From: Loxodes magnus | Lineage: Eukaryota > Ciliophora > Karyorelictea > Loxodida > Loxodidae | Assembly (NCBI GenBank): GCA_946699065.1 | Contig: CAMPDV010000007.1 | Location: forward strand, 1,302,001-1,366,000 | DNA: 64,000 nucleotides | Direction: 5' to 3' | Shown: positions 28,315 through 29,325 of the stretch, in pieces | How the letters are laid out: every line of letters starts with the position of its first letter | Position numbering within the stretch: the first letter of the stretch is position 1 | Program-made: the position numbers and the translations under genes | The notes under the pieces: model-generated | Told to the model about the DNA's origin: nothing | What the model saw: only the letters and a program-made list of their open reading frames with translations | Database searches by the model: none

Positions 28315-29325
<1,011 letters not shown>

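Follow-up and report, generated by a model that had tools for sequence, protein, structure and literature searches.

The window, a stretch of 64,000 nucleotides of Loxodes magnus DNA, contains on its minus strand a gene for Kae1/OSGEP, the catalytic subunit of KEOPS. Its coding sequence is matched over its full length by the Kae1 equivalog model TIGR03722 (arch_KAE1) at a score of 409.6 bits (cut-off 375), with profile positions 2–323 of 323 corresponding to residues 5–330, and the gene is on this basis a member of the Kae1/OSGEP family. Kae1-type chains from the PDB match it with E values down to 5.7e-157, and the 335-residue chain 6gwj_K, which we take to be the human protein, aligns up to residue 331. 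The gene is intact and is the sole full-length match found in the genome (705,730,643 bases in 7,843 contigs searched). We note that a second, diverged TsaD-family match of 44 bits (C80:235635-236132) is possibly the mitochondrial paralogue. Thirteen in-frame stop-like codons of the Kae1 coding sequence, eight UAA and five UAG, are read as Gln. Three of them fall on a Gln that two or more of the three best-matching PDB chains also have (UAA at residues 99 and 138, UAG at residue 319). The last sense UAA is located 35 codons upstream of the end and UAGs are found 18 and 23 codons upstream of it. The features discussed are collected in Table 1.

Table 1. Features of the Kae1/OSGEP gene, its putative UAA stop and a neighbouring gene end, in window coordinates
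Feature	Position	Strand	Remarks
Kae1/OSGEP coding sequence	28318..29325	minus	336 codons, single open frame; ATG at 29325
UAA read as Gln, residue 138 (Gln of GGNTQ)	28912..28914	minus	conserved column
UAG read as Gln, residue 319 (Gln of TQRFRTDEV)	28369..28371	minus	conserved; 18 codons upstream of the UAA stop
UAA read as putative terminator, codon 337 of Kae1	28315..28317	minus	homology end, G+C drop, coding model
Second in-frame UAA (codon 340), possible backup stop	28306..28308	minus	3 codons downstream
Third in-frame UAA (codon 345), possible backup stop	28291..28293	minus	8 codons downstream
First in-frame UGA beyond Kae1	27964..27966	minus	117 codons past the UAA
Fumarylacetoacetase gene end, UGA	39364..39366	minus	gene 39367-40599; nearby instance of the usual UGA stop

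At its C-terminus Kae1 shows the conserved WR, then five further residues, and then the TAA at 28315-28317. The homology stops at residue 330 with TIGR03722 and at residue 331 with the PDB chains. G+C falls from 33.2% in the coding sequence to 13.3% in the 60 nt past the UAA and is 17% over the whole stretch to the UGA at 27964. These values match those of the published L. magnus genome, 33.5% in coding sequence and 18.6% in 3′UTRs, as given in its passages on composition (PMC11441545). A model of codon usage, for which Rab domains and post-UGA sequence but not Kae1 served as training data, places the coding end at 28327, three codons upstream of the UAA. We infer the act of termination itself from the sequence; translation of Kae1 appears to end at UAA codon 337, and the UAAs at codons 340 and 345 could serve instead of it or alongside it. 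An earlier note on this DNA had proposed that UAA stops Kae1 and yet is Gln elsewhere, including within the same gene, and this proposal is upheld by the TAA at codon 337, the end of homology at residues 330–331 and the UAA ends of 12 other genes described below. It had also assigned the Gln of GGNTQ to UAA, and residue 138 is indeed TAA. Its placing of the UAA at the expected terminus of 336 residues agrees with the TIGR03722 match, complete to position 323 of 323, and with the alignment of 6gwj_K. Ends of eukaryote-type Kae1 are not strictly constant, where that note had called them very constant, the three best PDB chains running 1, 1 and 15 residues past WR against 5 here.

Gene ends were read in three other families among the matches listed: Rab/Ras (90 of 150; 30 loci and a further 60), UBC (40 of 150) and histone (20 of 31). 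The 150 ends examined divide into 111 UGA, 12 UAA, no UAG and 27 unresolved. UAA makes up 12/123 (~10%) of the resolved ends and UAG 0/123, these being counts of paralogous loci and not of independent events (L171 and L174, for instance, have one common ending). With the Kae1 end added, UAA ends are found in four families (Kae1, Rab, UBC and histone). Rab GTPases finish in a cysteine prenylation motif and their ends are therefore readable without alignment. A mechanical rule was applied to them, by which a CC or CxC motif had to have a stop-like codon no more than four codons away, the motif being accepted in any of the three frames. By this rule 59 of the 90 Rab genes have UGA near the motif, nine have UAA and no UGA that near, and 22 lack such a motif with a stop-like codon within three residues; none of the 90 read ends at UAG alone. 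Six of the UAA ends are clear (L030, L043, L070, L073, L078 and L080). L026, which lacks the CC/CxC motif, has a CAAX-like end, CLIF-UAA, and was counted as UAA. The other 21 genes without the motif and three ambiguous ones (L036, L044 and L051) were left out as unresolved, 24 of the 90 in all. For UBC and histone, the ends were assigned by visual comparison with paralogues. Among the 40 UBC ends 34 are UGA, three UAA (L152, L160 and L161) and three unresolved (L139, L162 and L165), and the 20 histone ends comprise 18 UGA and two UAA (L171 and L174). The weaker UAA calls are L026, L043 and L161, and L171 has a UGA five codons downstream.

In several cases paralogues with UGA at the same site fix the position of the end independently. 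L030 ends in SCNC-UAA and L016 in NCNC-UGA; L152 has KEYL-UAA where L151 and L154 have REYL-UGA; KYAM-UAA of L160 corresponds to KYAM-UGA in L126 and others; and TDM-UAA of L174 to TDV-UGA of L172. Arf, cyclophilin, actin and dynein light chain stand outside the end counts; five distinct Arf endings were seen among 30 loci and all are UGA. Many near-identical matches lie head-to-tail or scattered, as with Arf (C313, C976, C1167 and C454), UBC (C32:80272-102824) and actin (C266/C711/C524), and these groups represent either real amplification or assembly expansion. Two further coding regions of the window, both on the minus strand, are worth recording. In a papain-family (Peptidase_C1) gene at 15894-16677 the profile runs to residue 245, which is followed by L and then by UAA at 15937-15939; the window may have a second UAA end here, though a UGA lies seven codons past it (15913-15915). 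Positions 57981-59369 hold a coding segment that is rich in UAA and of low complexity; its coding score ends just before the UAA at 57981-57983, and an in-frame UGA is found at 57654.

The sequence around the UAA ends was compared with that around UGA ends and sense UAAs. Mean G+C in the 60 nt downstream is 0.183 for UAA ends (n = 13 with Kae1), 0.193 for UGA ends (n = 72) and 0.344 for sense UAAs (n = 108), the last being UAA codons inside Rab domains. The 72 UGA ends of the composition tests are those that were placed in frame by script (33 Rab, 29 UBC and 10 histone) out of the 111. The UAA ends differ from the sense UAAs (p = 6e-9) and not from the UGA ends (p = 0.70), and the sequence past them looks like 3′UTR. 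A G+C of 0.27 or less is found downstream of 10/108 sense UAAs, and low G+C on that side does not by itself settle the identity of an end. Upstream of UGA stops, UAA is rarer in the last 12 codons than at codons 13–60, both in Rab (4/396 vs 53/1584, p = 0.011) and in UBC and histone together (1/464 vs 5/174, p = 0.007). For UAG the corresponding figures are 15/396 vs 34/1584 in Rab (p = 0.07, in the opposite direction) and 6/464 vs 5/174 in UBC and histone (p = 0.18). The pooled test for UAA gives 5/860 near vs 58/1758 far (p = 4e-6), but its near and far sets differ in family mix, as shown by a shift of UGG in the other direction (23/860 near vs 2/1758 far); we therefore rely on the within-family figures, which are weaker. 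Depletion of UAA and not of UAG agrees with the published pattern for L. magnus, in which UGA and UAA are depleted before stops and UAG is not, at least as plotted in one figure of that work (PMC11441545, Fig. 3C). The 156 codons upstream of the UAA ends contain no UAA and four UAGs. Past the UAA ends, a further in-frame UAA occurs within six codons in 10/13 cases, compared with 7/26 off frame (p = 0.005) and with 25/72 past UGA ends (p = 0.006). No enrichment of this kind was seen past UGA ends (25/72 in frame vs 59/144 off frame, p = 0.46). These tandem UAAs may act as backup for a leaky stop.

All three stop-like codons are also found as sense codons. The Gln of DTAGQE is UAA in 22, UAG in five and CAA in two of the 29 Rab loci with a readable motif (30 complete loci examined). 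For the Trp of WDTAGQ, 18 of the 27 Rab loci in which this motif is readable (30 examined) have UGG and nine have UGA. Two closely similar eRF1 genes (L124 and L125) lie about 35 kb apart on contig C196 and have 436 codons each, of which 13 and 15 are UAA. Both copies encode the catalytic Gln of GGQ by UAA and end at UGA. Compared with a solved eRF1 chain, GTASNIKS is replaced by GRAQNIKS and YLCDNKF by FLCENTF; no claim on UAA recognition rests on these changes. ARAGORN found no tRNA genes in the 64-kb window and none in 35 of 185 loci.

Were UGA the only stop, the UAA at 28315 would encode Gln and Kae1 would carry a C-terminal extension of about 117 residues, ending at the UGA at 27964. The frame is formally open under table 6 and UGA is the sole stop in the published code, as set out in the passages of that work on codon meaning (PMC11441545). 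Set against this are the 17% G+C of the extension compared with 33% in the coding sequence, the coding model, which ends at 28327, and the location of the entire extension past the end of the Kae1 profile. The 12 other gene ends are alike, and for several of them a paralogue has UGA at the corresponding position. We consider such an extension very improbable, and the Kae1 end, the 12/123 other ends at UAA and the scarcity of UAA near ends bear out the view of the earlier note that the code is not one with UGA as only terminator. A short intron near the end could instead join Kae1 to a UGA, with no UAA stop required. Introns of L. magnus are indeed short, 93% being of 25 nt or less with a mode of 17, according to the intron statistics of the published genome (PMC11441545), and some Rab genes need a frame change upstream of their CCK-UGA end. 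The 136 nt downstream of the Kae1 TAA are free of TGA in all frames; six UGAs lie in other frames 26–94 nt upstream of it, and the claim of the earlier note that no UGA lies near the end in any frame thus holds on the downstream side and not on the upstream side. Three formal GT-AG introns (20, 22 and 28 nt, from 28388 and within 28388-28361) reach an upstream UGA. They would end Kae1 at codon 317–319 and lose the conserved 14-residue end, whose in-frame alignment with the other Kae1 chains extends to residue 331. Introns of 15–30 nt starting at the end of Kae1 or up to 45 nt past it give no UGA within 20 codons, and the same is true of each of the 12 other UAA genes. Among the introns listed, of up to 130 nt, a 127-nt one that opens 43 nt downstream of the TAA would make codon 355 a UGA and require three preceding UAAs to be Gln, but this length far exceeds the range in the published intron statistics (PMC11441545). 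The conclusion that splicing does not supply a UGA therefore stands, though "cannot", as it had been put, was too strong; we regard an intron of this kind as even less probable than the extension.

The least likely of the alternatives, in our estimate, is an assembly error or pseudogene, in which a true UGA was lost by sequencing error or decay. The genome is AT-rich and was built from long reads. The absence of TGA from all frames within 136 nt means, on the other hand, that a nearby UGA cannot be recovered by one indel past the conserved end. Kae1 is moreover intact and the only full-length match found. The pattern is repeated at other gene ends with UAA, no end read has UAG alone, and UAA is scarce upstream of ends. 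No canonical germline-limited inserts were found in L. magnus, in the published treatment of this question (PMC11441545), which makes an interrupted germline copy unlikely as an explanation. A full Condylostoma-type code, in which UAA, UGA and UAG all terminate near 3′ ends, is given slightly more credence by us than the extension, intron or error, and is still highly unlikely. UAA and UGA both have dual meaning here and the same logic is proposed. However, none of the 123 resolved ends is UAG, the last 12 codons show no shortage of UAG (15/396 vs 34/1584 in Rab), and in L003 and L004 a UAG stands directly before the UGA stop. The earlier note had likened the code to that of Condylostoma. The likeness extends to the dual meaning of UAA and not to UAG, which was seen as a stop at none of the 123 resolved ends and is not depleted near ends, nor to UGA, which is the main stop. 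Its contention that no stop is fully dedicated is borne out by UGA as the Trp of WDTAGQ in 9/27 Rab genes.

In our preferred reading, UAA and UGA each have two meanings, the choice between which is made near the 3′ end of the mRNA, UAG serves as a sense codon alone and Kae1 ends at UAA; on the sequence evidence we hold this to be very probable. The default decoding of UAA would be Gln. Where a UAA lies close to the mRNA 3′ end, eRF1 would outcompete the Gln tRNA and translation would end. For Kae1 the stop would be the UAA at 28315-28317, and the in-frame UAAs three and eight codons on would act as backup. UGA would be the main stop and also encode Trp, with UAG as Gln only. The cue would be 3′-end proximity, by analogy with Condylostoma and with published karyorelict work; the one sign of it in these sequences is an indirect one, the scarcity of UAA ahead of gene ends. 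The Condylostoma rule, applied to UAA and UGA and not to UAG, would account for the observations made here.

The reading can be set beside known codes. In the karyorelict code (table 27), as stated for L. magnus in 2024 in the passages on its code (PMC11441545), UAA and UAG are Gln and UGA is Trp or the only stop. Much of this is found here: UAA and UAG encode Gln (Rab DTAGQE, Kae1 GGNTQ and eRF1 GGQ), UGA is Trp inside genes (9/27) and stop at their ends (111/123), and 3′UTRs are short and AT-rich as in the published description (PMC11441545). It differs in that Kae1 and 12/123 other resolved ends stop at UAA, where UGA is the only stop in that description. With Condylostoma magnum (table 28) the likeness lies in UAA as Gln inside genes and as stop near transcript ends, in the depletion of stop-like codons before ends, and in extra in-frame stops, which are often found downstream (PMC4967479). 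The portion of that work on ribosome profiling shows stop-like codons to be read as sense by default and to cause termination where a transcript end is close (PMC4967479). UAG also terminates in Condylostoma, whereas here this was not seen (0/123 ends, no UAG depletion near ends) and UGA dominates. The nonstop code of Blastocrithidia, in the parts of its description on codon assignment (PMC12153298), likewise has UAA as amino acid and stop, with UAG as sense. It differs in having UAR for Glu, UGA for Trp and UAA as termination signal; in our sequences UAA is Gln and UGA the main stop.

The Loxodes code probably fits neither table 27 nor table 28: stop would be a second meaning of UAA beside Gln and of UGA beside Trp, and UAG would be purely sense, with UAA a minority stop in about one gene in ten and in-frame UAA backups kept. 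Dual-meaning UAA as such is already known from Condylostoma. Seah et al. 2022 (Peer Community Journal) reportedly suggest that stop-UAA may occur in a small minority of the transcripts of karyorelicts. No statement of stop-UAA in karyorelicts was found in those portions of the literature on UGA and UAA in karyorelicts or Loxodes, or on ambiguous ciliate codes, that our search covered. New here are a case at the level of a single gene, of which one full-length copy was found, the share of UAA (about 10%) among resolved ends in three families with UAG absent among them, and the tandem-UAA signature.

In practice, gene prediction with UGA as the only stop will often overrun UAA-stopped genes by tens of codons, perhaps in one gene of ten if the three families read are typical. 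UAA and UAG would be uncoupled as terminators within one genome, both encoding Gln and only UAA still stopping translation. This fits the idea that the ambiguity is ancestral to heterotrichs and karyorelicts and was resolved codon by codon. If true, the code of Loxodes would be an intermediate between that of Condylostoma and the Tetrahymena type, with UAG already freed from termination and UAA only partly so.
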